From contig NZ_JAFFHZ010000001.1 in assembly GCF_017052585.1 (NCBI RefSeq), positions 5,704,001 to 5,768,000 of the forward strand: 64,000 bases of DNA, read 5' to 3'. The stretch comes from Paenibacillus apiarius (GTDB lineage Bacteria; Bacillota; Bacilli; Paenibacillales; Paenibacillaceae). The first letter of the stretch is position 1, and every line of letters starts with the position of its first letter. A program made the translations under genes and the position numbers. The notes beneath the pieces are model-generated. The model was given only the letters and a program-made list of their open reading frames with translations. It was not told the origin of the DNA and ran no database searches. Below are positions 1 to 18,210 of this stretch, piece by piece.

Positions 1-3000
1 TCTGCCCCTGGCCAGACAACAGCATAACCCCGGCACGGCACGCTTCCGGCGCCGCTTTCTTCGACTGGACCCACTTGCCTGGGAGGGGCTTAAACAACAA
101 GCCCAAAAACGAGGGTTGACACCAACCGCTGTCGTGATGACGGCTTATGCCGCCGTTATCGAGAGATGGAGCCGGAATAAACAGTTTTGTCTCAATCTGA
201 CGTTGCTGAATCGGCTGCCGCTGCATGCCCAGGTCCATGATATTGTCGGTGATTTCACGTCCGTTAACTTGCTCGCTGTAGATGGGGGAGTCGGGCAAGC
301 CTTTCATGAACGCGCCAGGACTTTGCAAAAACAGTTGTTTGAAGATTTGGACCATCGCCTGTATTCCGGCGTGGAAGTGCTGCGTGAAGTTGCGCGCAGG
401 CGGGGACGGGAAGCCGCTTTAATGCCAGTGGTGTTTACAAGCGCAATCGGTCTGGTTGAGCCGGCTCAAGGCAACCCGCTAATAGGCACAATCGGGGGCT
501 ACGGAATCAGCCAGACGCCGCAGGTGTTCATCGATTGTCAGGCCATGGACAGCTTGGACGGGCTCCAGGTCAATTGGGATGTGCGCGAAGGCATCTTCCC
601 TGAAGGGATGATTGACGATATGTTTGCTGCCTTTGAGCAATTGCTGCGTTCATTGGCCCAGTCGAATCCAATCTGGGACACGGGCGAAGCCGTGCCATTG
701 CCTGCCTGGCAGTTAACGGAACGACATCACTCCAACGCCGCAACAGCACCCGTGCCGAATCAACCCTTGCATGAGCGGGTGCTGGCACAGGCAATGGCAA
801 CTCCGGATCTCCCTGCCGTCATTGACGGCGAAGGACAAGTCACTTACGGAGAGCTAGTCAAACGGGCCGCAGCAGTGGCTGAAAAATTACGAGCGCTGGG
901 TTGCGCAGCCCAAGACCGGGTGGCCGTCGTTATGGATAAATGCGCGCATCAAGTGGCCGCAGTATTGGGAGCATTGTCGGCTGGAGCGGTCTACCTTCCC
1001 ATTGATACGAAGCAACCGGAATTGCGGCGCTTGGCGATGCTGGAGCAAGCAGATGTCCGCTTTGTTTTGACGTGTTCGACAACTCCGCTCGAATGGCCGG
1101 GCCGATTCGTAACCATTGCAGTGGATCAATTAGAGCCCGCGACGAACAATATGCTTGCATCGGGTGGGGATCCGGACGTGCCTGCTTACATCATTTACAC
1201 CTCAGGTTCCACCGGACAGCCTAAGGGAGTTGTCATCAGCCACCGTGCAGCTGCCAACACCATTGCCGATCTGAACCGCCGCTTCAACATCAACCAAGGC
1301 GACAGGGTGCTGGGGCTTGCGCAACTGAGCTTTGATCTGTCCGTCTACGATATGTTTGGCCCCCTATCGGCGGGTGGCGCTTTAGTGTATCCACGTGCCG
1401 ATCGGCTCACCGATCCGTCTCACTGGGCTGAGCTAATAAGCAAACATGAAGTTACCGTGTGGAATTCTGTGCCGGCCTTGATGCAAATGCTGATCGCATA
1501 TGTAAACTCCGAGCCAAATATAACCTTGCCCAAATTGCGTTTGGCCCTGCTTTCCGGAGACTGGATTCCGCTGACTTTGCCTGATATGATTGCCAAGCGG
1601 TTGCCCGCTTTGCAGGTCGTCTGTCTGGGCGGAGCCACCGAAGCATCCATCTGGTCGATTTACCACATCTATCAAGGTCTTGAGGCGGATTGGCACAGCA
1701 TTCCTTACGGGCGTCCGCTCGCCAACCAAGGATTCCGGGTGCTGGACTCCCGGATGCGTGATTGTCCGGTATGGGTATCCGGGGAGTTGTATATTTCCGG
1801 GCATGGTTTATCCGACGGTTATTTGGCCGATCAAGCAACGACTCGTGAGCGGTTTGTGTTGCACCCGGCGGACGGGCAGCGCCTGTACCGCACCGGTGAC
1901 TTGGGCCGGTACACTCCCGGCGGCGAAATTGAGTTTCTTGGCCGCGAAGATCATCAGGTTAAAATCAAGGGGCACCGGATCGAACTCGGAGAAATTGAAT
2001 CGACCCTGCTCCAGCACCCTGCCGTTGCCGCAGCCGGAGTGGTGGTCGACGGTGCGGGCGATGATAGAGCGCTGCTGGCTGCCGTGGAAACAGCCCGCAA
2101 GAAAAAGCGGAATATAGATGAAGAAACATTTGAATTTGACAGCCTGGTTAACGGCATCGATGAACAGGCATGTGAAGCGTCTGATGAGATCGGCAGGGCG
2201 GAGATCGAGTCGGCGACTGCGGCCCTCGATCAAGCGGTTCTCAACTCGATGTTGGTTGCGCTGCAGAAGTTAGGGCTGTTCGCCAATGGCGGAACCTGTT
2301 CCATGGAAGATATTCTGCAACGCGGCGGAATCGTTCCTCGCTTCCATTGGTTAGTTCGGCGATGGATCGCAAGGCTAACGGAGGCAGGGCTGCTGGCGGA
2401 ACATCCCGCTCAACATTTTAGCTGTCCTCGGCAACCGGACGGGACCCAATTAAACGAGTATTGGAAACTGGCGGAGGCATTCTGGACGAAAAAGCTTGGT
2501 TCATCGGGATTTACTACTTACGTGCGCAGCAATGCCGAACAATTGTCAGAACTGCTGAGCGGACAGCAGGATGCCGTGTCCCTGCTGTTCCCGGAGGGCA
2601 AGCTCGACCATGTCCGAGCCTTGTACGTCGATCATCTCATGGCCAACTATCTCAATCATTGCATTTGCACACTCTTGACACGTATTGCCAAGACTCATCC
2701 AGGCCAAACGCTGCGGATTTTAGAGGTGGGTGCGGGCACGGGGGCAACGACGGAAAAAGTGCTGCAATCCCTGAACGGCTTTGAAGTGGAGTATGTTTTT
2801 ACAGATGCTACTCCCTTTTTTATCCCAGGTGCCAAATCCCGGTTCACGCAATTCCCGGGGGTTCGCTTCGGTATTTTTGATGTCGATCAGGACTATCGAG
2901 CGCAGGGGCTGGCCCCGAACAGCTTTGATGTCGTGCTGGCCGCCGGTGTACTGGAAAATGCCCGGGACATTCCGTCAAGCCTGAACAGGTTAACCGAACT

Positions 3001-4699
3001 CATCAGTCCCGGAGGGTGGCTCGTATTTACGGAACCGACAGAGGAACACTTATGGATACTGGCTTCGCAGGCGTTTATGATGACGGAACCGGGTGACCGC
3101 TTGCGAGAAGATACTTCCTACTTGGACCGGGGGGAATGGATACGGCTACTAAAAGAATACGGGGATGAGCCGGTACTATCTCTGCCTGCGGAGGAGCACA
3201 ACCTTTCCGCTCTCGGCTTTCACCTGTTTGCCAAGCGCTTGAAACAGGACCGGCTGCCGGTAAGCGTGTCAGAGTTGGAACGCTTTCTCTCATCCCGTCT
3301 CCCCGCACATATGCTTCCTTCGCACCTGCAGGTTGCCGATGCGCTGCCGCTGACGGGAAATGGCAAGATCGATCGGCGCGAGTTGGCCACATGGCGGCCT
3401 AGACCGGCCATAGACCATTCCAACATGGAATCGGATGAGGGAAGTGCAGACACGCTGGAGGCGCAGCTTGCCCAGTTATGGGCCGAAGCATTGGGGATCC
3501 CCGGTATAGGAAGGTTGCAAAGCTTCTACGAACATGGCGCCGATTCGCTCATTATGGCGCAGGTGGCAGGGAAGCTGCGCGACCAATTGGCTGCAGATCC
3601 CTCGCAAGGAGATATTCCCTATGATGCATTGCTCAGGCAAATGCTCAACTATCCTACTGTCGCTGCATTGGCGGAATTTATGCGTTCTCACCTTCAAGAG
3701 CCAGAACGCACGGCTGACGGCCCTTTGCCAGATTTGCAAGGGAACTCGTCATCCTCAAGCAATGCCGTGCTCACTCCTTACGGAGGAGGGGAGACGGGAC
3801 CGCTTCGAGTGGTGTTCCACGCCGGCCTCGGGACAATGAACTGTTTCCGTTTGCTCTTGGAGCGTATGAAAGAGCAGAACTTAGGGCCTGTCGTTGGAAT
3901 TACAGTAGCGGACATGGAGAAGTATTGCGAGGTTGAACCTTCCGAACTTATCGAGCGGCTTGCAGATGATTATGCCGGGCGCCTATTGGACAGCGGCCAC
4001 AAGCAAATGCAGCTTATCGGTTATTGCTTAGGCGGATTGATTGCGCTTGAAGTTGCAAGGCGGCTGGTTGAGAAGGGGATACATTTATTAGACCTGGTGT
4101 TGGTTGACAGTCACCCGGTGCTGTTTGATATTGACGATGATCTCGTCATTGAGACCTTGTTTGTTCCCAATCTGAATATTACCCTTGAACAAGCAGGGTT
4201 TGGCGATGCCAATTCCGATGATTTGGCACGGGGGCTGTTACATCTCTTCGAAAGCAACAACCATAGCGTGCCGCAAGGATCTTCATGCGCCATCGGTGGG
4301 GATGAAGGGCTGGAAAGAGTGGGCGGCCTATTCCGCACAATGGCAGCCCTGCATATGAAAGATCGCTTTGCGGCTTATGTCCATGCCATTGCAGCAGCTT
4401 CCGGTGGTCAAATGCCGGCCGAGATGGCAGAGGGGCTATTTAAGGTATATCGCCAAAGCTTTAAAGCTGCCCGCTTCACACCTCCCCCTTATATGGGAGA
4501 TATCCGGTTCTTGCTGGCAGATGAGCCCTTTAGTTTTTTACCCGGCACTGATGAAATGACTCTTGAGTTCTGGAGGGAAGTCTGTCTTGGCGAATTCGAA
4601 GTGACCGGAATTGAGGGGAATCACTTTAGCTGTATCGAAGAAGAAGCACATGCAATCAAGCTTGCCGAGTTGATATCGGCGCCGCTCATCAAGAAATGA
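1..4699 (+). CDS. Terminal NRPS module (Cy-A-MT-PCP-TE), 5' end outside the window
   Basis: The reading frame is open from base 2, so the gene starts upstream; 1565 residues are visible. In order: the C-terminal part of a heterocyclization domain (DFT at 251, PVVFTS at 424, SQTPQV then NWD near 508-580), an adenylation domain (YTSGSTGQPKG near 1195, YRTGDL near 1888), a methyltransferase inserted between adenylation cores A8 and A10 (LEVGAGTG near 2720), a carrier protein (GADSL, Ser codon 3545-3547) and a thioesterase (GYCLGG). By alignment from memory the specificity residues read DLYNLSLIW, the known cysteine code. The architecture matches PchF, which cyclizes Cys to a thiazoline and N-methylates the reduced ring. 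I infer the last module of a thiazoline/thiazolidine siderophore or similar peptide. The thioesterase nucleophile is Cys (codon 4025-4027) instead of Ser, with Asp near 4105 and His near 4620. Confidence 0.9.
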   Translation, partial: LPLARQQHNPGTARFRRRFLRLDPLAWEGLKQQAQKRGLTPTAVVMTAYAAVIERWSRNKQFCLNLTLLNRLPLHAQVHDIVGDFTSVNLLAVDGGVGQAFHERARTLQKQLFEDLDHRLYSGVEVLREVARRRGREAALMPVVFTSAIGLVEPAQGNPLIGTIGGYGISQTPQVFIDCQAMDSLDGLQVNWDVREGIFPEGMIDDMFAAFEQLLRSLAQSNPIWDTGEAVPLPAWQLTERHHSNAATAPVPNQPLHERVLAQAMATPDLPAVIDGEGQVTYGELVKRAAAVAEKLRALGCAAQDRVAVVMDKCAHQVAAVLGALSAGAVYLPIDTKQPELRRLAMLEQADVRFVLTCSTTPLEWPGRFVTIAVDQLEPATNNMLASGGDPDVPAYIIYTSGSTGQPKGVVISHRAAANTIADLNRRFNINQGDRVLGLAQLSFDLSVYDMFGPLSAGGALVYPRADRLTDPSHWAELISKHEVTVWNSVPALMQMLIAYVNSEPNITLPKLRLALLSGDWIPLTLPDMIAKRLPALQVVCLGGATEASIWSIYHIYQGLEADWHSIPYGRPLANQGFRVLDSRMRDCPVWVSGELYISGHGLSDGYLADQATTRERFVLHPADGQRLYRTGDLGRYTPGGEIEFLGREDHQVKIKGHRIELGEIESTLLQHPAVAAAGVVVDGAGDDRALLAAVETARKKKRNIDEETFEFDSLVNGIDEQACEASDEIGRAEIESATAALDQAVLNSMLVALQKLGLFANGGTCSMEDILQRGGIVPRFHWLVRRWIARLTEAGLLAEHPAQHFSCPRQPDGTQLNEYWKLAEAFWTKKLGSSGFTTYVRSNAEQLSELLSGQQDAVSLLFPEGKLDHVRALYVDHLMANYLNHCICTLLTRIAKTHPGQTLRILEVGAGTGATTEKVLQSLNGFEVEYVFTDATPFFIPGAKSRFTQFPGVRFGIFDVDQDYRAQGLAPNSFDVVLAAGVLENARDIPSSLNRLTELISPGGWLVFTEPTEEHLWILASQAFMMTEPGDRLREDTSYLDRGEWIRLLKEYGDEPVLSLPAEEHNLSALGFHLFAKRLKQDRLPVSVSELERFLSSRLPAHMLPSHLQVADALPLTGNGKIDRRELATWRPRPAIDHSNMESDEGSADTLEAQLAQLWAEALGIPGIGRLQSFYEHGADSLIMAQVAGKLRDQLAADPSQGDIPYDALLRQMLNYPTVAALAEFMRSHLQEPERTADGPLPDLQGNSSSSSNAVLTPYGGGETGPLRVVFHAGLGTMNCFRLLLERMKEQNLGPVVGITVADMEKYCEVEPSELIERLADDYAGRLLDSGHKQMQLIGYCLGGLIALEVARRLVEKGIHLLDLVLVDSHPVLFDIDDDLVIETLFVPNLNITLEQAGFGDANSDDLARGLLHLFESNNHSVPQGSSCAIGGDEGLERVGGLFRTMAALHMKDRFAAYVHAIAAASGGQMPAEMAEGLFKVYRQSFKAARFTPPPYMGDIRFLLADEPFSFLPGTDEMTLEFWREVCLGEFEVTGIEGNHFSCIEEEAHAIKLAELISAPLIKK

Positions 4700-4813
4700 A
4701 CGCGTTCCCGAGGATTGGATCGGGGATTTAAAGTTAAAGTGGAGGCCACTCCCATAATTCCATTTGGGGTTTGAACTACTCGGGAAGAACTCGATTTGAA
4801 TCGTCAAGGGAAG

Positions 4814-4842
4814 TTGCAGCAAAGGTTGAATTTATTTATAAT
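4814..4842 (+). promoter_or_regulatory. Sigma-A promoter of the leader/FusB-like transcript
   Basis: TTGCAG, a 17-bp spacer and a perfect TATAAT. The predicted transcript starts near 4849, directly before the Shine-Dalgarno of the 15-codon leader ORF at 4869. Confidence 0.6.
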
Positions 4843-4868
4843 GATCAGTAAAAGGGAGGTGGCAGGAG

Positions 4869-4916
4869 ATGGCAATTCACTTTGCCGGAATCAGCAACGA
4901 CTCATGCAAAGCCTGA
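4869..4916 (+). CDS. Putative 15-aa leader peptide upstream of the FusB-like gene
   Basis: ATG with the strong site AGGGAGGT eight bases upstream, encoding MAIHFAGISNDSCKA then TGA. Its last codons (4906-4913) are complementary to 4999-5006, and a second hairpin masks the ribosome-binding site of the FusB-like gene at 5048. This is the layout of a translational attenuation leader, a mode reported for staphylococcal fusB. I do not recognise the peptide; that it is a regulatory leader is inference. Confidence 0.5.
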   Translation: MAIHFAGISNDSCKA

Positions 4917-5035
4917 TATTGGGGCGATACTTTGCGTGGGGCCGGACAGTTATCGTTAATATTGTCGCCCGAGAGAGCTTATATCGTTTCTAATAATGGG
5001 CTTTGCACCTTATTTTCCTTTCATAATAAATAAGG
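4906..5035 (+). promoter_or_regulatory. Candidate translational attenuator of the FusB-like gene
   Basis: Arms GCAAAGCC (4906-4913) and GGCTTTGC (4999-5006) can pair. A second hairpin pairs CCTTATTT (5008-5015) with AAATAAGG (5028-5035), covering part of the AAGGGG site that precedes the ATG at 5048. A ribosome held on the leader ORF would occupy the first arm and could change the fold. Confidence 0.5.
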
Positions 5036-5047
5036 GGCTGAAAAGCA

Positions 5048-5701
5048 ATGGTCAAACCATTTATTAGAAACCATCAATATAACTTGATTAAGAAGCAGGC
5101 AGGTCTGCTGCAGCATACCTGCAACACCGTTTCCGATCCGAAAGTGGTGGAATCGGTAAAATACAGCGCACAATGCAAAATTATAGAAGCGTTCCCGGAA
5201 GCAATGGAGCTGGAAAGGCAGACGTTGGAGCAGATTTCGACGTTTAATGCGTCGGCAGAATTTCATCATTATTTGCTTTCGTTGGAGCCTTATTTGATAG
5301 AATTTGCGCACGTGACGGATAAGCAGCTTAAGAAGCTGTTCCCCAAGAACAAAAAGCTGAAGATTCCTGGTTTAGCCGCTATCGATTACCGCTATGTCAC
5401 TTATCTTGGCTGGACCGACATCGGAACGAATAGAATGTACCTTGTTTATCAGCTGAACGGGCAGCTCGTCGGCGTCGAAGGAAGATATACCCCGGCGAAT
5501 AAGAAAAGCATATGCTTTTTGTGCAATCGGCATGAAGAGGTTGCGTTATTTACGGCGATCACGAAATCGAAACCGGCTAACGCATCGCCTGACTACTATA
5601 AGGCGATCGGCAACTATATGTGTGTGAATAGCGACACCTGCAACAAGAACATGACGGATGTCACCGCATTGGAAAAATTCATTCATGACGTTGTAGGATA
5701 A
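5048..5701 (+). CDS. FusB/FusC-family EF-G-binding protein
   Basis: 217 residues, the usual FusB length. FusB-type proteins bind elongation factor G and release it from fusidic-acid-stalled ribosomes. Family marks are the N-terminal HQYN helix region, the KKLKIP and GWTDIGTNR segments in the middle, and a C-terminal four-cysteine zinc finger (CFLC near residue 157, then MCVNSDTCN and TDV near 197-207). The ATG at 5048 has AAGGGG ten bases upstream. The gene stands alone with its own promoter, leader and terminator, as expected of an inducible resistance or housekeeping ribosome-rescue factor. Whether it gives fusidic acid resistance cannot be told from sequence. Confidence 0.85.
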   Translation: MVKPFIRNHQYNLIKKQAGLLQHTCNTVSDPKVVESVKYSAQCKIIEAFPEAMELERQTLEQISTFNASAEFHHYLLSLEPYLIEFAHVTDKQLKKLFPKNKKLKIPGLAAIDYRYVTYLGWTDIGTNRMYLVYQLNGQLVGVEGRYTPANKKSICFLCNRHEEVALFTAITKSKPANASPDYYKAIGNYMCVNSDTCNKNMTDVTALEKFIHDVVG

Positions 5702-5716
5702 TGTATGGAATAGATC

Positions 5717-5757
5717 GAGAAGAGGCTGTCGAAGCATTTCGGCGGCCTTCTTCTTTG
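5717..5757 (+). terminator. Rho-independent terminator after the FusB-like gene
   Basis: Stem of about 15 bp from GAAGAGGC to GGCCTTCTTC around the loop GCAT, followed by a T-rich stretch. Confidence 0.75.
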
Positions 5758-5785
5758 TTCAACATCTATATTTTGGAGGCACAAC

Positions 5786-5917
5786 ATGCACATAGAATTA
5801 AAAGATATACCGGAATTTCAAAGCCTTAAAGCAATTATCCGAAAAAGAGCACCGGACATGCTAGCAGCTCCATCAGATCGATGGGGCTATGCTAGTGTTA
5901 ACCGAAGAGTGTGCTAA
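5786..5917 (+). CDS. Small ORF of 43 aa, unrecognised
   Basis: ATG preceded by TGGAGG at 5774-5779, encoding a 43-residue basic peptide that begins MHIELKDIPEFQ and ends at TAA. It sits alone between a terminator and the siderophore-type promoter at 6061. No family is recognised. The good ribosome-binding site supports translation, but it could be the truncated head of a lost gene, because nothing coherent continues in frame. A weak inverted repeat (GCCCTATCA and TGATAAGGGC, 5940-5965) follows. Confidence 0.35.
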   Translation: MHIELKDIPEFQSLKAIIRKRAPDMLAAPSDRWGYASVNRRVC

Positions 5918-6060
5918 GAGCAATCCGAAGGCAAAACGGCCCTATCAAAACAAATGATAAGGGCATATCGTACAGAGCTAAATCATAATAAAGTAGAGGG
6001 AATCCAGATGGTGTGGCGTTTGTTGCCGATATTAATTTTGTCGAGTAACGTGTTGCGACG

Positions 6061-6122
6061 AAACTTTTTCCTCGGGGAAAAAGTTTTTTACATTTACAAC
6101 ATATGTTTACTTAGGATAAAAT
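6061..6122 (+). promoter_or_regulatory. Promoter with 11-bp inverted repeat, twin of the one at 17081
   Basis: A perfect inverted repeat (AAACTTTTTCC at 6061-6071, GGAAAAAGTTT at 6076-6086, 4-base loop) lies just upstream of TTTACA (6093-6098), an 18-bp spacer and TAAAAT (6117-6122). The same repeat, promoter and flanks recur before the AraC-family gene at 17182, with similarity running to about 6145. Likely the binding site of that regulator; the assignment is inference. Confidence 0.65.
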
Positions 6123-6185
6123 TAACTTACCTAGATGGAACTAATATACATCTCATGATTAAAGTTTCGAACAAAGGAGCTGCCA

Positions 6186-6905
6186 ATGAAAAAATATATG
6201 ATCTTCGGAGCAAGTAAAGGTTTAGGAGACGCTTTTGCGAAAGGATTGCCTCAGCAGGGAGATCAGGTGTGGGTAGTATCCAGAAATCGACCAAACAGCT
6301 TTGATTTGCAGGATGGAGTTAAGCGCATCTGGATTCAGGCAGACCTGTCGAAGCAGGAAGCTGCTGCTGACATTGCAAAGTCTCTTACAGCAGAAACAAT
6401 TGATGTGCTTATCTATAACGTAGGGATTTGGGAAAAAGACGGGTTTGAAGATCACTATAATTTTGACAAGGATGAGCCAGCCGAAGTTGCCAACATCATT
6501 CAGGTAAATATAACGTCGACAATCACTTGCATTCAATCGTTGCTCCCGAATTTACGAAAATCTGGAGCGGGGAAAATTATTTTCATCGGATCAACGGCTG
6601 GACTGGAGCACACAAACAATGCTCAGGTGTCCTTTGTCGCTTCCAAATTCGGTCTGCGCGGGATAACGAATGCTGTGCGGGAACATGTTCGCAAGGACAA
6701 TATAGCCGTTACGTGCATTAATCCGGGTGAGCTTGCAGCGGAAATCCCCTATGAAGCTGGGGCTGAAAAAGCACTCTCTGAATATGGGGGCACCCGAATT
6801 CCTGTGCAAGATATTATTTCGCTCGTTAAATGCGTGATCAGCTTGTCAAAAGCAGCTTGTGTCAAAGAAATCCATGTGCCCGCTATGCAGGATGTAAATG
6901 CTTAG
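6186..6905 (+). CDS. Short-chain dehydrogenase/reductase-like protein with Phe at the catalytic Tyr site
   Basis: 239 residues, classical SDR fold. The N-terminal nucleotide-binding motif GASKGLG begins near residue 8, YNVG replaces the NNAG motif near 76, and the catalytic Ser lies in IGSTAG near 138. The expected YxxxK is FVASK: the codon at the Tyr position is TTT. Loss of the Tyr usually cripples reduction, so it may be a non-catalytic or altered SDR. AAAGGAG precedes the ATG by six bases. Its promoter is a near copy of the one before the siderophore-type AraC gene, so it may belong to the same regulon as the NRPS upstream and the transporter cassette downstream. Confidence 0.8.
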   Translation: MKKYMIFGASKGLGDAFAKGLPQQGDQVWVVSRNRPNSFDLQDGVKRIWIQADLSKQEAAADIAKSLTAETIDVLIYNVGIWEKDGFEDHYNFDKDEPAEVANIIQVNITSTITCIQSLLPNLRKSGAGKIIFIGSTAGLEHTNNAQVSFVASKFGLRGITNAVREHVRKDNIAVTCINPGELAAEIPYEAGAEKALSEYGGTRIPVQDIISLVKCVISLSKAACVKEIHVPAMQDVNA

Positions 6906-7344
6906 GCGTTCTACGGAGTAAGCGCCAAATATAAGGTGACACCGCATATAAGAGATGTCCAATTACATAACTTCGTCGCGAGAAGAGCTTGTTAAATCAG
7001 ACTTTTCTCTTTTTTTATGTAGGAACATTTGTGTTCATCATGCTTGTACCGAGCTTCTTCATTGCAACTTCACCGCGTCATGACCTATTTGAATGAGTAA
7101 TGCTTGCTATCGGCAACTTGATTCCGATAGTGAATAGTTTATAGGAATGGTGAAACTGCAATGAAGCGGGATGGGGCCGACGCTGGGGGAAATTGAAATT
7201 TGAGTATTAAAATCAGCACTTAATATGGAAAGTTTACACAAATAAATACCAATATTTATTACATTTAGTAACTCGCTTAATATATAATGGACCATTAAAG
7301 GGCAGTTACAGTCTCTTAATAATTTTTAAAATGGAGGATAGTAA
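6906..7344. other. Intergenic region with terminator, no gene seen
   Basis: Contains the terminator at 6980-7017 and a 7-bp inverted repeat (CTATCGG and CCGATAG, near 7105-7130). The right half turns AT-rich towards the secreted-protein gene. No convincing coding sequence on either strand. Confidence 0.5.
6980..7017 (+). terminator. Terminator after the SDR gene
   Basis: GAGAAGAG (6980-6987) pairs with CTTTTCTC (7002-7009), with one G-U pair, and a run of T follows. Confidence 0.6.
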
Positions 7345-10175: not shown

Positions 10176-10233
10176 AATCAAGCGGAATAAGATACAGATG
10201 CGTTAATGATACCAAGTGAAAGGATGGCTTCAC

Positions 10234-10353
10234 ATGAAAGGCTTGGAAACTGTTGAACGTTATCCGAAACGCTGCTCCGAACAGATGGATAAAACCGATG
10301 AAACGATGTCCGGAGCAGTTTCTTTGCTGAAGAATGTATTGCGGTACAGCTAG
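10234..10353 (+). CDS. Small ORF of 39 aa, doubtful
   Basis: ATG with AAAGGATGG upstream, 39 codons starting MKGLETVERYPKRCSEQ. The same stretch can fold through CTGCTCCG and CGGAGCAG followed by TTTCTTTG, so it may instead be a terminator region of murB. No family recognised. Confidence 0.25.
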   Translation: MKGLETVERYPKRCSEQMDKTDETMSGAVSLLKNVLRYS

Positions 10354-10474
10354 ACGTCCGCTTGGTATGGTTCTATTTGGTCCGTAAGGGAATCGTACAG
10401 GTCGAGAGTGATTGATTCGGTAATAACCGGCAGAATGCAGAGTTAAGGAATGCCTTGCAAGATTAATCTTCATA

Positions 10475-10511
10475 CAAAAAAAGCAGCACTATCATAAATG
10501 CTGCTTTTTTG
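10475..10511. terminator. Bidirectional terminator between murB and the MFS gene
   Basis: AAAAAAGCAGCA and TGCTGCTTTTTT arms around a short loop, suited to both strands. Confidence 0.85.
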
Positions 10512-10565
10512 TTATTTCTAAGCCCCGTTTTAATTCTCCTTTTACAGGTTACTTCTCAAAACAAA

Positions 10566-11747
10566 TTATTCTGTTTTAATAACATACTTACCAAGAAGCC
10601 ACATTCCACAACTTATGACAAGGAAATATACGGGCATCGTCACCAGTGAACCATTATGAAGAACACTCATTCCCCATGTCATTAAGCTAACCAACAAATA
10701 ATAACCTAAACTAAATATCGCCCCCGCGGTGCCAACAACATCATGAAAACCGACTAGTGCGAGACTTAGGCAATTGGGCAATGCAATGCCGGCTCCCATT
10801 AGCATCATAAACATGGTAAATAAAATACTTGCGATGGCCATGATCTTCGGCATCGTGTCACAAGCACTTGCAACTGTAAGAGCCAATGCTCCAACAGACA
10901 TAACTAGCAGGCCAATATGAATGATCTTCTCAGGTGCATAAATGGCCAATAATCGTTTGGAGAACATTGCGCCAATAATCGACGCAAGAGCTACAATGAT
11001 GCCAAAGAAACCATAAACCCCAGGTGACACATGAAAGTGCTCAATAAATAAAAATGGAGCTTCGGCATAGTAACTGAAAATGACCCCATTGATTCCGCCA
11101 ATCAATGTTCCAAAGACGATTACACGGGGTGACAACAGCATTCTCTTTGCGGTCGATGCAACGGCAACCTTTTTTCTCTTCGTAACATCTGCTGTTTCCG
11201 GCAGCCTTAATAGAGCATAGACAAACAAGAATACACTCAAAATAACAAGTGTAAAGAAGACAGCCCGGAAGCCAAGGGCTTGATCAACCCAGCCCCCGAT
11301 GAGCGGCCCGACTGCGGGAGTAAATGCGATGACTGCAGATATTTGTGCAAACATAGCATGCCGTTGATTACCTGATACACTTTCTCGCAGAATCGTTTGT
11401 GTAATGATCGATCCTGTCGCGGCACCAAATGCTTGAACAAAACGGCTTAACAGAAGCATTTCAATAGATGCGGAGAAATAGCACATTAAACTGCCAAGTC
11501 CGTATAGAACGAGTCCTCCCAGCATAGCTGGTCTCCGCCCGGTATAATCGGATAACCATCCCCAACAGAAAACACCCAAAGCAAAACCGATAAAGTAAAT
11601 GCTTAATGTTAACTGTACAGAACTATTTGAGACACCAAGCGCCATAGAAATATCAGGTAATGAAGGTGTGTAAATGGTCTCGCTGATTTGCGGAAAAGCC
11701 ACAAGCACGATCATTAACAGCAAAGATGGAACTACCTTTTTTTTCAC
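10566..11747 (-). CDS. Bcr/CflA-type MFS multidrug exporter
   Basis: 393 residues with 12 predicted membrane helices, a proton-coupled drug efflux protein of the DHA1 family. Family marks are the N-terminal ETIYTPSLPDI segment after the first helix (near residue 23), motif A GWLSDYTGRRPAMLGG near 63, RFVQAFGAATG near 102 and motif C AVGPLIGGWV near 145. Such proteins export bicyclomycin, sulfonamides or peptides; the substrate here is unknown. The start is GTG with TAGGAGGG eleven bases upstream. Monocistronic, transcribed away from the YbtX-like gene with a shared 350-bp intergenic region that holds a 10-bp inverted repeat. Confidence 0.88.
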   Translation of the reverse strand: MKKKVVPSLLLMIVLVAFPQISETIYTPSLPDISMALGVSNSSVQLTLSIYFIGFALGVFCWGWLSDYTGRRPAMLGGLVLYGLGSLMCYFSASIEMLLLSRFVQAFGAATGSIITQTILRESVSGNQRHAMFAQISAVIAFTPAVGPLIGGWVDQALGFRAVFFTLVILSVFLFVYALLRLPETADVTKRKKVAVASTAKRMLLSPRVIVFGTLIGGINGVIFSYYAEAPFLFIEHFHVSPGVYGFFGIIVALASIIGAMFSKRLLAIYAPEKIIHIGLLVMSVGALALTVASACDTMPKIMAIASILFTMFMMLMGAGIALPNCLSLALVGFHDVVGTAGAIFSLGYYLLVSLMTWGMSVLHNGSLVTMPVYFLVISCGMWLLGKYVIKTE

Positions 11748-11766
11748 TTTATTTTCGCCCTCCTAC

Positions 11767-11797
11767 AAGCTTATATGACTCCGAACAATATAAGCTT
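11767..11797. promoter_or_regulatory. 10-bp inverted repeat in the divergent MFS intergenic region
   Basis: AAGCTTATAT (11767-11776) and ATATAAGCTT (11788-11797) are perfect complements 11 bases apart, 20-50 bases upstream of the exporter start. Could be a repressor operator or an mRNA hairpin. Confidence 0.4.
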
Positions 11798-11983
11798 AGC
11801 TAGGGAAACGGGGGCTTCATTATCGCAATTCGATTATAGGTCATCACTTTTTTTATAATTCCTTTGAAAGTTTTATAGGAGGGCTTAACAAGACCGCTAA
11901 TAGGCCGGTTAAACGTAATGTACATTATATCTTCTCAAATCGACTAGTCCAAGTCAATATTTGGAGAATTCCGTTAACGTCAA

Positions 11984-12013
11984 AATCCGTTTTTCCGTAA
12001 GAACAATCCGTTT
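11984..12013 (+). promoter_or_regulatory. 21-bp-spaced direct repeat upstream of the YbtX-like gene
   Basis: AATCCGTTT occurs at 11984-11992 and again at 12005-12013, exactly 21 bp apart (two helical turns). This is the spacing of half-sites bound by AraC-family regulators. No Fur box was seen in this intergenic region. Confidence 0.35.
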
Positions 12014-12098
12014 CAAGGTAGCAATGCTTAACGTTTTTCACTTAACATTCAAAAGTGAAGCGTCAATAATAGATGCTGCGAAAGGGGAAAATGTGAAG

Positions 12099-13295
12099 AT
12101 GGCTAGAATTCGATTCAGTATATTTTTTAGTGTATTTGTTGCGATGGTTGCATTGATGATTATTGCTCCTATCATGCCTCCGCTCATCCGCGAATTGGGG
12201 TTAAGCGAAACCCACTCGGGCTTGATCATATCATTAGGCTCCATTGCGATGACCTTGATGGCTCCGGTGTGGGGACGGCTAAGTGATATCAAAGGAAGAA
12301 AGCCCGTCATTTTGCTTGGCTTCCTGGGCATGTTTGTGAGCTACGTCTTGTTTACGGCGACGATGTATGCTGGACTGTCCGGGCTCATTAAAGGCGGACT
12401 GTTAGTCGCATTGCTGATAGCAGCGCGCGCTATGGTTGGTCTGTTTATTCCAGCCGTCCCGTCATCGGCACAGGCGTATATGGCGGATGTCACAGATGAA
12501 AAAGACCGTTCTGCAGGCATGGCATTCATTGGCGCCGCAAATGGACTGGGCCTCGTGCTTGGACCTGCGATAGCTGGCGTATTTGCCCTTATCGGACTAA
12601 TTTGGCCCCTTTATATCGGAGCTTTGCTGCCGATTATAGCATTTGTCGTTGTGCTGCTGTTGATCCCGGCCCATAAACCGATGATCCAAGATAAACCGCC
12701 AAAGGTCAACCCGTTTCAAAAAGGCGTTCGCCTTTATTTGTTTGCCGGGCTGGTAACGATGCTCAGTATTGTAACCCTGCAAGTCGTCGGAGGCTTCTAT
12801 TTCCAGGACCAATTATCTTTGACTACCCAAGAAACTGCGCGCATGCTGTCGATGGGGTTGATGTTTACCGGGGTAGCGATGATCATTACGCAAGGGATTC
12901 AAATGAAAAATCAAAGATGGCAGCCCAAACAGCTGCTTCTGGTTGGATCGCTGCTGCTTGTTATCAGTATGGCGCTCTTTTTGTTCCTTATTAGCTTGAT
13001 CAGCTATTACCTGGCATTCTTTTTGTTTGGGGTAGGAGCGGGCCTTATGATGCCAGGCTTTATGGCGGGTTCATCGCTCGCCGTTTCCCGCGAGCAACAG
13101 GGAGGCATAGCGGGTCTTTTGGCATCAGTCCAAGGGATTTCGGCTGTGATTGCGCCAATTCTTAGCACAAGCCTTTACCAAGTAGATAGACATCTTCCGT
13201 TTGCGATCATCGCTGCCTTGGTTCTCGTGATGGCCATAACCATGTTTACCGTGACAAATAAGCCTGCCGCAAACAGATCGGTAACCGGACAATAG
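12099..13295 (+). CDS. YbtX-like MFS transporter of the siderophore cassette
   Basis: 398 residues, 12 membrane helices. Motif A is GRLSDIKGRKPVILLG near residue 67; LGLVLGPAIAG near 150 corresponds to motif C. The gene is first in a co-directional MFS, ABC, ABC, AraC series, the order of ybtX-ybtQ-ybtP-ybtA in the yersiniabactin island. That context suggests handling or export of the siderophore or its precursor; YbtX itself has no firmly known substrate. I chose ATG 12099; GTG 12093 with AAAGGGG five bases upstream is equally possible. The frame is open further upstream to 11961, but that part does not resemble the family. Confidence 0.8.
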   Translation: MARIRFSIFFSVFVAMVALMIIAPIMPPLIRELGLSETHSGLIISLGSIAMTLMAPVWGRLSDIKGRKPVILLGFLGMFVSYVLFTATMYAGLSGLIKGGLLVALLIAARAMVGLFIPAVPSSAQAYMADVTDEKDRSAGMAFIGAANGLGLVLGPAIAGVFALIGLIWPLYIGALLPIIAFVVVLLLIPAHKPMIQDKPPKVNPFQKGVRLYLFAGLVTMLSIVTLQVVGGFYFQDQLSLTTQETARMLSMGLMFTGVAMIITQGIQMKNQRWQPKQLLLVGSLLLVISMALFLFLISLISYYLAFFLFGVGAGLMMPGFMAGSSLAVSREQQGGIAGLLASVQGISAVIAPILSTSLYQVDRHLPFAIIAALVLVMAITMFTVTNKPAANRSVTGQ

Positions 13296-13333
13296 CAATC
13301 ATCCATATTAGATGGTTCATTTTTTTATATTCA

Positions 13334-13362
13334 TTGATAATGATTATCTTTATCGTTAATAT
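13334..13362 (+). promoter_or_regulatory. Fur box overlapping a sigma-A promoter
   Basis: TGATAATGATTATCT at 13335-13349 matches 14 of 15 positions of the Bacillus Fur 7-1-7 box. It overlaps TTGATA (13334-13339), which is followed by 17 bp and TAATAT (13357-13362). Predicted iron-repressed promoter of the two ABC genes. Confidence 0.85.
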
Positions 13363-13478
13363 AGTATTATGATTATAGTCATGTAATCCTTAATCTCATG
13401 TTGACTAGACAACAATATATCACCTTATATTACTAAGCACTTGCTGCTAAGCAGACTTATAAGAAGGATGGGATAGAC

Positions 13479-15317
13479 ATGAGTGCCAAATCTGAAATGT
13501 CAGGCTTGATAAAAATAGCCGGTGAAAAAAAGGGGTTATTAACAGCGGCCAGCTTGTTCTCTATCCTTTCAAGCCTGCTGCAAATCGCACCTTTTATCGC
13601 GGTATATAACATTATCGAGGAATTGTTGCGACATGCGCTACAGCCTGCAAGCATAGACAAGGAATATATCCTATATTGGGGTATCTTTGCTCTCATCGCT
13701 TTGATTGCCGCGTTACTTACTTTATATATCGGTGTAATGTGTTCTCATATCGCAGCTTTCAACATCCTCTATAAGCTAAGGGTGCGACTGGCTGAGCATG
13801 TTGCAAAAGTTCCAATGGGCTATCATACGAAAACGGCAACAGGGGAACTCAAAAAAATAATCGAGGTCAGTGTTGAAAAAATAGAAAAATTTATCGCTCA
13901 CCAATTGCCTGATACCGTCTGTGCGGTGATTATGCCGATTCTATTGATCAGCTATTTATTTTGGCTCGACTGGCGGCTGGCTCTCGTGCTGCTCATTCCG
14001 ATCGGCATCGGTTTTTGGCTGCAGTTCCGTATGTTCGGCAACGTAATGGGACAAACGGCCTACAGAGACTTTCAACATGCGGTGGAAGAAATGAATGCAA
14101 CAGGCGTGGAATATGTCAAGGGTATGCCGGCAGTAAAAGTATTCGGGATCAATGCGGAGTCATTTCTCACTTTCAAGCAAGCAGTGACCAGATACCGCGA
14201 TATTTCTTTACATATTACCGATTTATTCAAAACACCGTACAGTCTCTTTTTTGTCATTGTAAGCTCTTTGTTTACTTTCATTATCCCCATCGGAATTCTG
14301 CTGTTGAGTGGTAATTCCGGCAATCTATCGTTTGCGATTACGTTTATTTTGTTTCTCATTATTGCGCCAAGCTTATCCACGCCGTTGTTGAATTTGATGT
14401 ATCTGGGCAGCGGGCTGAGAGAAATTGTGGAAGGAAACAAGCGGATTGAAGCGGTGTTTGCGGAACCGGTTGTAACGGAGCCTGCTGTGGCCCAAGTTCC
14501 TGTCAGTTACGATATCGCCTTCCAGCATGTTTCATTCGCATATGAACGGAAAGAAAGCAAAGATTTCAAATCGGTATTACAGGACATTCATTTTGTGGCA
14601 AAAGCAGGGGAAATGACAGCATTAGTCGGTCCTTCAGGCGGCGGAAAATCGACCATTGCCAATCTATTGCTGCGTTTCTGGGATGTTCAGGAGGGCGAGA
14701 TCTCGATTGGCGGCGTTCCGATTCGAGAGATGGGAACGAATACGCTGATGGATACCGTCTCCTTTGTATTTCAGGACGTTCATCTTTTTTACGATACGAT
14801 TGAAGCGAATATTCGAATGGGCAATACAACCGTCTCCAAAGAAGCTGTCATAGCGGCTTCCAAGACAGCCTGCTGCCATGAATTCATCGAGAACCTCGAG
14901 CAAGGATACGATACCAAAATCGGCGAAGGCGGCACCTATTTATCCGGGGGAGAGGCGCAACGAATTGCCATCGCTCGGGCGCTGCTTAAAAATGCGCCAA
15001 TTCTGGTGCTGGACGAAGCGACGGCTTATGCGGACGCTGAAAACGAAAAGAAGATCCAGCAAGGGCTCATTGAGCTTGTGAAAGGGAAGACCGTCCTTAT
15101 CATTGCTCATCGCCTGTCCACGATTCGTGCGGCAGAACAAATTCTTGTCGTCAAGCAGGGGGAAATCGTCGAACGCGGAAGGCACGACGAACTGCGGGCA
15201 GACAACGGGTTGTACGAGCAAATGTGGCAAGCACATCAAAATGCCTCCTCTTGGAGACTGGGTGCGGAGAATATAATATCGCCACAAGCAATTCCTGCAG
15301 GGGAGGCTTCCCGATGA
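13479..15317 (+). CDS. ABC half-transporter (membrane plus ATPase), YbtP/YbtQ-like
   Basis: 612 residues: an N-terminal exporter-fold membrane domain with six helices (about 20-320) and a C-terminal ATPase. Walker A is GPSGGGKST near 384, followed by LSGGEAQR near 488 and Walker B ILVLDEATAYAD near 508. The DEATAYADAENE wording is typical of the YbtP/YbtQ and IrtA/IrtB proteins, which use an exporter fold to import ferric siderophores, though the related PchH/PchI are less well understood. It should pair with the next gene, whose start overlaps its stop (ATGA). Preceded by a Fur box, so probably iron repressed. The C-terminal tail of about 25 residues after the ATPase is not conserved in the family. 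Confidence 0.88.
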   Translation: MSAKSEMSGLIKIAGEKKGLLTAASLFSILSSLLQIAPFIAVYNIIEELLRHALQPASIDKEYILYWGIFALIALIAALLTLYIGVMCSHIAAFNILYKLRVRLAEHVAKVPMGYHTKTATGELKKIIEVSVEKIEKFIAHQLPDTVCAVIMPILLISYLFWLDWRLALVLLIPIGIGFWLQFRMFGNVMGQTAYRDFQHAVEEMNATGVEYVKGMPAVKVFGINAESFLTFKQAVTRYRDISLHITDLFKTPYSLFFVIVSSLFTFIIPIGILLLSGNSGNLSFAITFILFLIIAPSLSTPLLNLMYLGSGLREIVEGNKRIEAVFAEPVVTEPAVAQVPVSYDIAFQHVSFAYERKESKDFKSVLQDIHFVAKAGEMTALVGPSGGGKSTIANLLLRFWDVQEGEISIGGVPIREMGTNTLMDTVSFVFQDVHLFYDTIEANIRMGNTTVSKEAVIAASKTACCHEFIENLEQGYDTKIGEGGTYLSGGEAQRIAIARALLKNAPILVLDEATAYADAENEKKIQQGLIELVKGKTVLIIAHRLSTIRAAEQILVVKQGEIVERGRHDELRADNGLYEQMWQAHQNASSWRLGAENIISPQAIPAGEASR

Positions 15318-17056
15318 ATCAATACTTTTACAACATTTCGGCAGGCAACATCAAAAATTTATGGCCTTCCGCTTTTGCGGCCATATTGGACGGCATAACC
15401 AAAATCATTCCGGCAGCTTTGCTCGTCGATATTTTCAATACCATTTATGAAGCTTTTGCGTATCCGGAAAAGGGTTTGAACACCGGGCGGATGTGGATCG
15501 TATGCATCATTCTGATCGTCTGGCTGATGGTGTCCTATGCCGCTGCTTCTTTTCTTTATGACAAATCCTTTAAAGCCGCCTACAGCTTGGCAGCATCCGG
15601 TCGCTTAAAAATGGCCGAGCACCTGCGACATCTATCGTTAGGTTATTTCGGACAGCGCGATCCAGGTGATATGACGAACTTATTGCTGAGCGACTACGGA
15701 CAAGTCGAACATACGATATCTCACAATGTGCCGCAATTGATTAGCGCGATTATGCTGCCCGTACTGGCATTCGCGGGGCTCGTATTTCTGGACTGGAGAA
15801 TGGCATTGTCCATGTTCATAGCGGTCCCAATAGGGGGATTGCTGCTGTGGCTGACGGACTCGATTCAAGCGCGCTTAAGTGAACGTCATGTCAAAGCCAA
15901 AAACGAGGCTGCCAGTCGACTGCAGGAGTATTTAGCCGGTATACGCGAGATCAAGGCCCACAATATGGGCGGGGATCGGTTTGAACGTTTACGCCTTTCA
16001 TTTGACCAATTGAAGCACGCTTCGATTCGGCTGGAAGGTCTCGTAGGTCCTCTGATTATGGGAGCGATGCTGCTGATCCGCTCCGGGATGACCATCATGA
16101 TTTATGCCGGAAGCTATCTGCTTGTTGGCGGAACGTTGACTCTTCCCATCTTTCTTTTGTTCTTGCTGCTTGGGACTCGAATCTTTGAACCGTTAACCGT
16201 CGTGTTAATGAACTATGGCGGAATGCGGTATTCTGCTTATAGCGCACAGCGGATCATGGACGTGCAGCAGCATGCACCGATGCAGGGCACGGCAAGCATC
16301 GAGTCTTCCGGGCCGATCGTGTTCGACCGGGTCACATTTGGTTATGACGCCGCTACGCCTGTCCTGAAGGACTTGTCTTTTACGATCCAACCGAATACGA
16401 TCACGGCTTTGGTAGGACCGTCCGGAAGCGGGAAGAGCACCGTAACACGCTTGATTGCGCGCTTCTGGGAAGTTCAACAGGGAGAAATCAGGATTGGGGG
16501 ACAATCCATTCGAGATGTCAATCCGGAAAACCTGCTGCAGCATATGTCCATGGTATTCCAGGATGTGTATCTATTCCAAGATACGATCGGCAACAACATC
16601 CGCATTGGCAACCTAAACGCAACCCAAGCAGAGATTGAAGAAGCGGCCAAGCGCGCTTGTTGTCATGACTTCATCTCCCAATTGCCGCAAGGATATGATA
16701 CGCCGGTGGGAGAAGGCGGCTCGACATTGTCAGGAGGTGAAAAGCAGCGGATTTCGATTGCCCGAGCATTGTTGAAGAATGCGTCGATTGTGCTGCTGGA
16801 TGAAGCAACCGCTTCTTTGGATCCGGAGAACGAGCTTGCTGTGCAGCAGGCCATCAATGAACTGGTTGCCAATAAAACGGTTATTCTGATTGCGCATCGC
16901 TTCAAAACGATTCAGAACGCAGACCAGATCCTTGTCCTTGAACATGGGCAGCTCGTTGAAGAAGGTACTCATCAGACACTGCTGGACCAAGAAGGATTAT
17001 ATGCCAATTTGTGGAGTCTGCAGCAGGATTCCGATGGCTGGCAAGTGAAATCTTGA
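15314..17056 (+). CDS. ABC half-transporter (membrane plus ATPase), partner of the preceding gene
   Basis: 580 residues from the ATG at 15314, which overlaps the previous stop by four bases and has GGGGAGG upstream; an earlier in-frame start at 15224 would lie inside the previous gene. Six membrane helices, then Walker A GPSGSGKST near 368, LSGGEKQR near 471 and Walker B IVLLDEATASLDPENE near 492. This half has the canonical ASLD where the partner has AYAD, the kind of asymmetry seen in heterodimeric siderophore importers. Predicted role: ATP-driven ferric siderophore uptake, with export as the alternative. Confidence 0.88.
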   Translation: MNQYFYNISAGNIKNLWPSAFAAILDGITKIIPAALLVDIFNTIYEAFAYPEKGLNTGRMWIVCIILIVWLMVSYAAASFLYDKSFKAAYSLAASGRLKMAEHLRHLSLGYFGQRDPGDMTNLLLSDYGQVEHTISHNVPQLISAIMLPVLAFAGLVFLDWRMALSMFIAVPIGGLLLWLTDSIQARLSERHVKAKNEAASRLQEYLAGIREIKAHNMGGDRFERLRLSFDQLKHASIRLEGLVGPLIMGAMLLIRSGMTIMIYAGSYLLVGGTLTLPIFLLFLLLGTRIFEPLTVVLMNYGGMRYSAYSAQRIMDVQQHAPMQGTASIESSGPIVFDRVTFGYDAATPVLKDLSFTIQPNTITALVGPSGSGKSTVTRLIARFWEVQQGEIRIGGQSIRDVNPENLLQHMSMVFQDVYLFQDTIGNNIRIGNLNATQAEIEEAAKRACCHDFISQLPQGYDTPVGEGGSTLSGGEKQRISIARALLKNASIVLLDEATASLDPENELAVQQAINELVANKTVILIAHRFKTIQNADQILVLEHGQLVEEGTHQTLLDQEGLYANLWSLQQDSDGWQVKS

Positions 17057-17080
17057 ATCGACATAAGGATGTTCACAACG

Positions 17081-17141
17081 AAACTTTTTCCTACGGGAAA
17101 AAGTTTTTCGTATTTACAACATATTTTTATTAGGATAAAAT
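17081..17141 (+). promoter_or_regulatory. Promoter with 11-bp inverted repeat, twin of the one at 6061
   Basis: AAACTTTTTCC (17081-17091) and GGAAAAAGTTT (17096-17106) with loop TACG, then TTTACA (17113-17118), 17 bp and TAAAAT (17136-17141). The flanks to about 17160 also match the copy before the SDR gene. The repeat directly upstream of the -35 box suits activation by an AraC-family protein, perhaps the gene's own product. Confidence 0.7.
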
Positions 17142-17181
17142 GAACTCATCTTGATGGCACTTAGAGTGGAGGAGAATAGCT

Positions 17182-18210
17182 TTGAAACTGCAAATTGACA
17201 CCTGGGATTTGAGCGGCGCTTACGGGGACTGGCAAGATGTCACTCCATCCCCCCCACAGAAGCAGCACCATCAAATCTATTCCATTCCGACTGTGAGCGG
17301 AACAGGGCATTTACAACGGATTTTCTTAAGACAAGGCTTGGAGATCAATTGGTTCGACGCCGAATTGCACGAGCCGGTTACGATGGATGTCGGGGTTCAT
17401 TATCCTCACTTGGAAATCTCTTATACGATGTCTGGCACAGGCTGCTGGGAGACATCGACCCAAGCCTTCAACTTATCCGCAGGCGTCTCGTCGCTGATAT
17501 ATATGAGGGAGGCGAGGCTTCATGCCGAGCTCTCCCCAAAAGAGCCTTTGCAGCATATGGAGCTTCGCATCGATTTGCGGCATTTCGATGCCAATCTTCC
17601 CGAGCTGGAGCGATTGACAGCCAATCCGGTCTACTGCAGACAAACGGCAGGTTCTCCGCTAATTCCGCTCATCGTGGAGCAAATGAAGCATTGTCCGTAT
17701 AACGGATCACTTCAGAAGCTTTACTTGGAAGGGAAAGCACTCGAACTGCTGGCCTTTCATTTAGATGGAACGGATAAGGAAGAGATGGGACAGCAAGTCA
17801 AATCCAAGCTGACAGCCGAAGATATCCAATGCCTTCATGAAGCGAAGGATATATTATCCCGTACTTGGAAGCAGCCTCCGAGCTTGCTTGGACTTGCAAG
17901 ATTAACCGGGCTTAATGATTACAAGCTGAAGCTCGGCTTCAAAGAGTTGTTCGGCACGACTGTATTCGGTTATGTGCGAAGCCTGCGAATGAATGAAGCG
18001 CGATATATATTAGAGCAAGGAAAAGCCAATGTCAGCGAAACGGCCATCATGGTTGGGTATCACAATGTAAGCCACTTTGCATCGCTCTTTCGCAAAACCT
18101 TTGGTTACAACCCTAGTGAATTCGGAAAACTCACCTCCAGAGCGGACCTTGCGCGACAAATGAATCCGCATATTGTTAAGGATCATCCATTTACAGGTGG
18201 CAAAGCGTGA
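17182..18210 (+). CDS. AraC-family regulator, YbtA/PchR-like
   Basis: 342 residues starting with TTG; GGAGGAG lies seven bases upstream. The N-terminal 200 residues form a cupin-like ligand-binding part (LEISYTMSGTGCWET near residue 74). The last 100 carry two helix-turn-helix motifs (LLGLARLTGLNDYKLKLGF near 235, then VSETAIMVGYHNVSHFASLF). NDYKLKLGFKELFGTTVFGY is the characteristic wording of the YbtA/PchR group, which activates siderophore genes when it binds the ferric siderophore. Its place at the end of the MFS-ABC-ABC series repeats the ybtXQPA order, transcribed the same way here. It likely binds the inverted repeat at 17081 and 6061. Confidence 0.88.
   Translation: MKLQIDTWDLSGAYGDWQDVTPSPPQKQHHQIYSIPTVSGTGHLQRIFLRQGLEINWFDAELHEPVTMDVGVHYPHLEISYTMSGTGCWETSTQAFNLSAGVSSLIYMREARLHAELSPKEPLQHMELRIDLRHFDANLPELERLTANPVYCRQTAGSPLIPLIVEQMKHCPYNGSLQKLYLEGKALELLAFHLDGTDKEEMGQQVKSKLTAEDIQCLHEAKDILSRTWKQPPSLLGLARLTGLNDYKLKLGFKELFGTTVFGYVRSLRMNEARYILEQGKANVSETAIMVGYHNVSHFASLFRKTFGYNPSEFGKLTSRADLARQMNPHIVKDHPFTGGKA

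Follow-up and report, generated by a model that had tools for sequence, protein, structure and literature searches.

The window analyzed here is a 64,000-nucleotide stretch of the Paenibacillus apiarius genome (C1:5704001-5768000), and it opens inside the last gene of a cluster predicted to make a thiazoline siderophore. Positions 1-4699 encode the C-terminal 1565 residues of a 1865-residue nonribosomal peptide synthetase (NRPS; C1:5703102-5708699), whose gene begins 898 bases before the window and is cut by its left edge. The other biosynthetic genes and an uptake operon lie to the left of the window, and a further cassette of transporter and regulator genes lies 12-18 kb into it. From left to right, the operon and cluster consist of the following features:

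C1:5678163-5684445, minus strand: uptake operon, divergent to the biosynthetic genes, with two ATP-binding cassette (ABC) half-transporters, a double energy-coupling factor (ECF) ATPase, a CbiQ-type T component, and a Trep_Strep S component
C1:5684547-5685581, plus strand: AraC regulator
C1:5685755-5686576, plus strand: type II thioesterase
C1:5686705-5689707, plus strand: 1000-residue fusion of a 2,3-dihydroxybenzoate (DHB)/salicyl-AMP ligase and a salicylate synthase
C1:5689728-5698832, plus strand: 3034-residue synthetase of aryl carrier (ArCP), cyclization (Cy), adenylation (A), and peptidyl carrier (PCP) domains in the order ArCP-Cy-A-PCP-Cy-A-PCP
C1:5699011-5700132, plus strand: saccharopine-dehydrogenase-like protein
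C1:5700136-5702445, plus strand: thiazolinyl imine reductase-methyltransferase (MT) fusion
C1:5702417-5703166, plus strand: glyoxalase-like protein, preceding the terminal synthetase
Window 1-4699, plus strand: C-terminal part of the terminal NRPS, read from Pfam domains, full frame, and motifs as Cy-A(Cys)-PCP-thioesterase (TE) with an MT domain inserted

The terminal NRPS contains Condensation-type, AMP-binding, methyltransferase, PCP, and thioesterase domains. Its MT lies inside the A domain (AMP-binding 262-608, MT 907-1007, and AMP-binding_C 1088-1122 in the numbering of the 1565 residues), and its Cy motif reads EFLIADWAS (ExxxxDxxS), with E replacing the first D. An earlier interpretation made from the window's letters alone (the sequence-only reading) had proposed a Cy-A(Cys)-MT-PCP-TE layout for this module, which Pfam domains and motifs confirm. 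It had also proposed a thiazoline siderophore pathway, and this is supported by the genes left of the window, where the salicylate synthase, the salicyl/DHB-AMP ligase, two more Cy modules, and the thiazolinyl imine reductase for which it recommended looking are all present.

The salicylate synthase half of the fused starter enzyme scores 437 bits against the NCBIfam model TIGR03494 (cut-off 325), and the thiazolinyl reductase scores 313 bits against TIGR01761 (cut-off 189). Among PDB structures, the ligase half is closest to a salicylate-AMP ligase (best match) and PchD, the synthase half to MbtI and Irp9, and the reductase to YbtU. The 3034-residue synthetase has three carrier sites, two A domains, and two Cy motifs, DLLVADVQS and DNLIFDGWS, both of the DxxxxDxxS form. 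Across the three modules, the A-domain specificity motifs, read by eye, are DLYNLSMI, DLYNLSLI, and DLYNLSLI, which we take to be the cysteine code, giving three Cys-coded A domains. The locus therefore combines a salicylate supply and salicyl-AMP ligase, at least two Cy modules with the DxxxxD motif, and a thiazolinyl imine reductase and TE, the gene content of a salicyl-thiazoline cluster, and as judged from its sequence it is complete for a siderophore of salicylate and three cysteines.

Each of the three A domains carries an inserted MT-like domain; an intact S-adenosylmethionine (SAM) motif I is found in the third of these and in the MT of the reductase fusion. A comparison with CurJ- and PchE-type domains covered the first and third MT-like domains and the reductase-fusion MT. 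The first matches the CurJ C-methyltransferase best (160.9 bits, against 26.6 bits for PchE), the third is also nearest the CurJ C-methyltransferase, and the reductase-fusion MT is nearest AprA MT2; the MT-like domains may alternatively be epimerases of the PchE type.

The chemistry of the pathway can be predicted from this gene content. The fused enzyme would convert chorismate to salicylate and then activate it, after which salicylate would be loaded onto the N-terminal carrier domain of the 3034-residue synthetase. The two Cy modules of that protein, followed by the terminal Cy module, would add and cyclize three cysteines, and the reductase would convert at least one thiazoline to a thiazolidine. 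Methylation would be carried out by the MT domains of the terminal module and the reductase fusion, and the TE would release the product. The compound predicted in this way is built from salicylate and three cyclized cysteines, carries some methylation, and has one or more of its rings reduced.

Perfect 7-1-7 Fur boxes precede the thioesterase and fused starter genes (L013:1716 and 2623), and L013 as a whole holds 10 Fur sites at up to three mismatches, some of them overlapping, where 0.9 were expected. Sites with no more than one mismatch occur in the cluster stretches of seven of the eight genomes scanned, G264 having none, in a scan that had no shuffle control. These boxes suggest that the cluster is iron-regulated.

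The S component of the divergent operon is a 206-residue protein that scores 108 bits against the Trep_Strep model TIGR02185 (cut-off 76). Together with the CbiQ protein and the double ABC ATPase, it supplies the S component, T component, and two A ATPase domains of an ECF transporter. The iron complex would most likely be imported by this ECF transporter together with the YbtPQ-like ABC pair of the same operon. Matching biosynthetic genes (55-85% identity) stand next to ECF genes and the ABC pair in Paenibacillus popilliae (G009), Paenibacillus sp. ACRRX (G013), Aneurinibacillus aneurinilyticus, and Brevibacillus laterosporus. Strand and order of the operon vary among these genomes, and in P. 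popilliae it stands directly before the starter gene on the same strand; the AraC and glyoxalase proteins have no match in the cluster stretches of A. aneurinilyticus and B. laterosporus. The operon likewise adjoins the cluster in G235, and in G264 it adjoins the terminal synthetase on a separate contig, so that it lies beside synthetase genes in all five of the 394 family genomes that encode the fused starter enzyme. Six of the 394 genomes have the cluster-type ABC protein (at least 64% identity), and all five with the fused enzyme are among them (Fisher p=8e-11; the genome counts for the ABC proteins, here and below, were made by hand, and the Fisher tests ignore kinship).

Beyond the family counts, a synteny run took in nine named loci whose fused enzyme is at least 63% identical, L019 being left out. 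A cluster-type ABC pair lies near the fused enzyme at five of the nine (L015, L017, L018, L024, and, via L167/L168, L021), at L022 the S gene alone precedes the contig end, and at L016, L020, and L023 the stretch read contains no cluster-type ABC pair. Sporomusa and Pelosinus also carry the fused starter enzyme with parts of the cluster (L016, L021, and L023). In Clostridium senegalense (L025), the ligase beside a cluster-type ABC pair has no matched salicylate synthase half, and thus the fusion is not universal.

Alternatively, heme or some other nutrient could be the substrate of the ECF/ABC operon, whose linkage to the synthetase would then be incidental. A heme ECF transporter exists in Staphylococcus lugdunensis, according to the portion of the literature available, and the sixth genome with the cluster-type ABC protein, G337, encodes a complete ECF S-T-AA plus ABC1-ABC2 operon (L245:16051-20000 and L246:1-2315), with the biosynthetic proteins unmatched in the 40 kb read, making this operon a possible orphan importer. 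Against this stand the position of the operon beside synthetase genes in every fused-enzyme genome of the family and in A. aneurinilyticus and B. laterosporus, as well as the genetics of eqbHIJ in Streptococcus equi described in the available sections of PMC3672683, and the nutrient explanation is accordingly held to be quite improbable. A search with partial coverage of the literature found nothing on Trep_Strep proteins with ECF transporters or on SiaFGH with heme.

The 12-18 kb cassette within the window consists of four genes, all on the plus strand, and a Fur box:

11961-13295, plus strand: major facilitator superfamily (MFS) transporter, first gene of the cassette, TetA/BcbE-like by weak model scores and not YbtX-like
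13335-13349, plus strand: Fur box differing at one position from the 7-1-7 consensus, located after the MFS gene and before the first ABC gene
13479-15317, plus strand: YbtP-like ABC half-transporter, 39% identical to YbtP
15224-17056, plus strand: YbtQ-like ABC half-transporter, 39% identical to YbtQ
17182-18210, plus strand: AraC-type regulator, 37% identical to YbtA over 137 residues at the DNA-binding end only

By eye, the MFS gene is likelier to start at 12093 or 12099 than at 11961. The sequence-only reading had described the cassette as a complete counterpart of ybtX-Q-P-A. An MFS gene, two ABC half-transporters, an AraC gene, and a Fur box are present, as it stated, but the gene order is MFS, YbtP-like, YbtQ-like, AraC, with P before Q, and blastp finds no match between the MFS protein and YbtX at an E value of at most 0.01. 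In the yersiniabactin reference from E. coli, ybtX, ybtQ, and ybtP share one strand and ybtA lies on the opposite strand. The likeness to ybtXQPA lies in the YbtP/YbtQ-type pair; there is neither a YbtX-type MFS protein nor the X-Q-P order, and the AraC protein is a candidate YbtA-type regulator. Over the whole window, eight Fur sites with up to three mismatches were found and 5.8 expected; given these numbers, only the near-perfect, promoter-placed site at 13335-13349 is counted, and it is kept in the sister genome G010.

The genes in the 7 kb between the terminal synthetase and the cassette had been called apparently unrelated, and they look so: they encode FBP, a short-chain dehydrogenase/reductase, a DUF4878 protein, a formate/nitrite transporter, MurB, and a Bcr/CflA MFS protein. 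The first of these, at 5048-5701, is a FusB/FBP-like EF-G-binding protein that scores 104 bits against a resistance-model cut-off of 450 and looks like a housekeeping FBP. The last, a Bcr/CflA-type MFS gene just before the cassette (10566-11747, minus strand), gives a weak match to a model of the siderophore importer FslD (101 bits, cut-off 500).

The relation of the two ABC pairs to YbtP and YbtQ was examined in a maximum-likelihood tree of 59 half-transporters, from which open reading frames of the same genome under 500 residues, two duplicates, and one unrelated frame were left out. YbtP, YbtQ, the cassette pair, the cluster pair, a third pair of this genome, and their relatives form a single clade (100/98), within which the exact place of YbtP and YbtQ is unsure, as both are long rows of odd letter composition. 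Eighteen other exporters of this genome fall outside the clade, bearing out the YbtPQ-type assignment of the cassette pair in the sequence-only reading, and the cassette and cluster pairs are sister subfamilies in both halves. P-glycoproteins top the raw PDB rankings, and despite this a drug-exporter reading of the pairs is ruled out by the tree; when the rankings are limited to half-size transporters, YbtP or YbtQ comes first in all four lists. The third YbtPQ-like pair of the genome (L177:7481-11006; C1:5312481-5316006) lies near a Peripla_BP_2 binding protein. A Trep_Strep-like S gene is found directly upstream of the cassette-type pair in G012 and at three of the six loci sampled from other genera, and thus the coupling of this type of ABC protein with ECF genes recurs.

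The sequence-only reading had joined the NRPS and the cassette in one pathway, so that the cassette would import or export this siderophore as the partner of the synthetase 7 kb away. Its favorable points include the YbtPQ-like position of the pair in the tree, the Fur box, the short distance to the NRPS, and the S gene beside the same type of ABC pair, which makes this context common to both transporter types. The distribution of the cassette can be followed by its first ABC protein (at least 67% identity), which occurs in 49 of the 394 family genomes. It is present in one of the five fused-enzyme genomes, compared with 48 of the 389 without the fused enzyme (Fisher p=0.49), and is missing from the other four genomes with the same cluster. 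Within the genus, 8/19 genomes have the cassette and 3/19 the fused enzyme, with an overlap of one.

The thiazolinyl reductase model extends this comparison, as it detects eight of the 394 genomes, adding G004, G012, and G048 to the five with the fused enzyme. The cassette occurs in four of these eight and in 45 of the other 386 (p=0.010 family-wide), a result that favors the cassette as transporter of the pathway and makes a separate cassette slightly less probable. The association is weak, and kinship may be its cause; by subset it is 3/5 versus 5/14 within the genus (p=0.60) and gives p=0.29 outside it. In G012 the cassette lies roughly 740 kb from the cluster, and in G004 and G048 it is on a different contig. 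Each of these three added genomes encodes another YbtPQ-like pair by the cluster: in G004 and G012 this pair is next to an AraC gene and roughly 6 kb away from the reductase, and in G048 it is found at the cluster end together with an ECF-ATPase-like gene. The cluster has its own YbtPQ-like pair in 8/8 reductase genomes, and the cassette is near the cluster only in the present genome. With the cassette also found without the cluster in G010, its role as the pathway's own transporter is held unlikely on linkage and the sister-genome comparison, and the joining of NRPS and cassette in one pathway is not well supported. G004, G012, and G048 (L258-L264) contain a second kind of thiazoline cluster, in which the reductase-MT fusion, glyoxalase, and terminal NRPS are 57-65% like those described here (the glyoxalase being unmatched in the cluster of G048), the first synthetase and the saccharopine-dehydrogenase-like protein are only 25-39% similar, and no fused starter enzyme is present.

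The cassette is more readily seen as a separate Fur-boxed unit, probably for the uptake of another, endogenous iron chelate or of foreign siderophores, and perhaps also of the new siderophore. In agreement with this role, 45 genomes carry the cassette without a thiazolinyl reductase, a Fur-like site (up to two mismatches) precedes the ABC or S gene of cassette-type loci in 10 of 15 genomes, a count likewise lacking a shuffle control, and in B. parabrevis a Peripla_BP_2 binding protein lies two genes away. The five genomes without a Fur-like site speak against it, as does the variation in neighbors from genome to genome (a decarboxylase, a GMC oxidoreductase, AraC, or the S gene). Taken alone, this assignment of the cassette is given slightly less than even weight.

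In the sister genome G010, the cassette proteins are 94-96% identical and have the same MurB context, and the family-wide searches found neither the fused enzyme nor a thiazolinyl reductase. The distance from the left flank (L012:1-10296, matched in pieces) to the FBP gene is approximately 3.2 kb in G010 versus 33.5 kb here, and the synthetase genes have a G+C content of 0.54-0.55 versus 0.44-0.48 in their surroundings. From this comparison, the cluster was likely gained as one block, though not in a clean single insertion. Near the left border of the block missing from G010 is a resolvase-type recombinase (L012:10726-11268), and a protein with the TIM barrel of an EndoS-type endo-beta-N-acetylglucosaminidase is encoded left of the cluster (L012:7394-8371).

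Clusters of this kind are already known, equibactin and the ulbactin-type calls being examples, and for staphylococci the link to ECF transporters has been published; the view that a Paenibacillus version would be largely uncharted was too strong, given the published equibactin, C. difficile RT023, and ulbactin-type (B. laterosporus and P. thiaminolyticus) clusters found in the literature available. As described in the accessible part of PMC3672683, the equibactin locus eqbA-N of S. equi has the same kinds of genes as the present cluster, eqbHIJ are required for equibactin-dependent iron uptake, and the equibactin, C. kluyveri, and C. difficile RT023 clusters share a salicylate starter, three Cy domains, and a saccharopine-dehydrogenase-like protein, with genes for an importer and for YbtPQ-like ABC proteins next to the synthetases. 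Neither "ECF" nor "energy coupling" appears in the text of that paper. A similar gene set including an ECF entry is listed for the C. difficile RT023 island (PMC6814731, in part), and the portion seen of a 2025 survey reports that an equibactin-like cluster, apparently of S. lugdunensis, comes with an ECF importer (PMC12709192). To the extent that its locus is described there, equibactin differs in having one A domain rather than three, in requiring added salicylate where the present cluster has a fused salicylate synthase, and in its DtxR-like regulator EqbA in place of AraC.

A B. laterosporus genome has the same cluster, with biosynthetic proteins 66-76% and transport proteins 61-81% identical. 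The likeness to ulbactin comes through this genome and the antiSMASH ulbactin calls for B. laterosporus and P. thiaminolyticus, as given in the excerpts available, rather than through a reference ulbactin cluster. Ulbactins F and G are reportedly products of Brevibacillus (Igarashi, 2016). An uncharacterized three-cysteine cluster of Brevibacillus is also mentioned in the section seen of PMC9867215. According to partial sources, the saccharopine-dehydrogenase-like protein recurs in sorangibactin (SrbE) and mupirochelin (mchE) biosynthesis, as does the glyoxalase/VOC protein (SrbJ and mchJ), which is absent in coelibactin, and mupirochelin shares the thiazolinyl reductase. However, these three systems belong to other phyla, and their products have oxazole or oxazoline rings or a homocysteine thiolactone.

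Taken together, gene content, domains, motifs, Fur boxes, linkage, and distribution make it probable that the locus holds an iron-regulated cluster of the ulbactin/equibactin kind, acquired as a block and served by its own ECF/ABC uptake operon, with the 12-18 kb cassette as a separate unit; the substrates and the direction of transport are predictions from these features. Several observations in addition to the reductase-cassette association weigh against this. On the biosynthetic side, the ligase half falls under the DHB-AMP ligase cut-off (629 vs 724 bits), SAM motif I is degenerate in the first two MT-like domains and likewise in the orthologues read, and the third Cy domain has E in place of the first D, as do four of six orthologues read, the other two having D. 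In the distribution data, the 64% threshold for the cluster-type ABC protein was chosen after the gap from 64 to 60% had been seen, as identity thresholds generally were, and the family-wide protein searches scored only two to three candidates per genome. Relatives at 55-60% identity occur in 35 more genomes, none with the fused enzyme, and no ECF gene was found within 20 kb at the three such loci read first (L247-L249). G010 also differs elsewhere, with approximately 16.5 kb from FBP to the formate transporter compared with 2.5 kb here. Finally, loss of eqbKL in S. equi left uptake unblocked and hinted at efflux (PMC3672683, in the part available), and the proposed equivalence of eqbHIJ to the ECF genes here comes from the accessible portions of PMC3672683, PMC6814731, and PMC12709192 rather than from a sequence comparison.

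Elsewhere in the genome, a separate DHB-AMP-ligase-like protein (C1:3460244-3461833; L179) is 50% identical to the fused ligase and is followed by NRPS matches, perhaps marking a second siderophore, of the catechol type. NRPS matches also lie within a single 13,741-residue open frame (C1:5143210-5182989) of this NRPS-rich genome.

A more tentative proposal, and one rather more doubtful than not, is that import of thiazoline siderophores in monoderm bacteria is composite: an ECF transporter with a Trep_Strep S component would capture the iron complex, and a YbtPQ/IrtAB-type pair would move it on or strip it of iron. As part of the same proposal, the unit would be exchangeable and could also occur without biosynthesis, as in G337 and in cassette-type pairs with an S gene, allowing siderophore piracy. 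Five genomes of the family, together with Aneurinibacillus and Brevibacillus, offer comparable thiazoline siderophore clusters of Gram-positive bacteria in which the starter enzyme is fused and uptake genes are adjacent. Thus, the question of whether monoderm import depends on the ECF transporter, the YbtPQ-type pair, or both becomes directly testable in soil bacteria.

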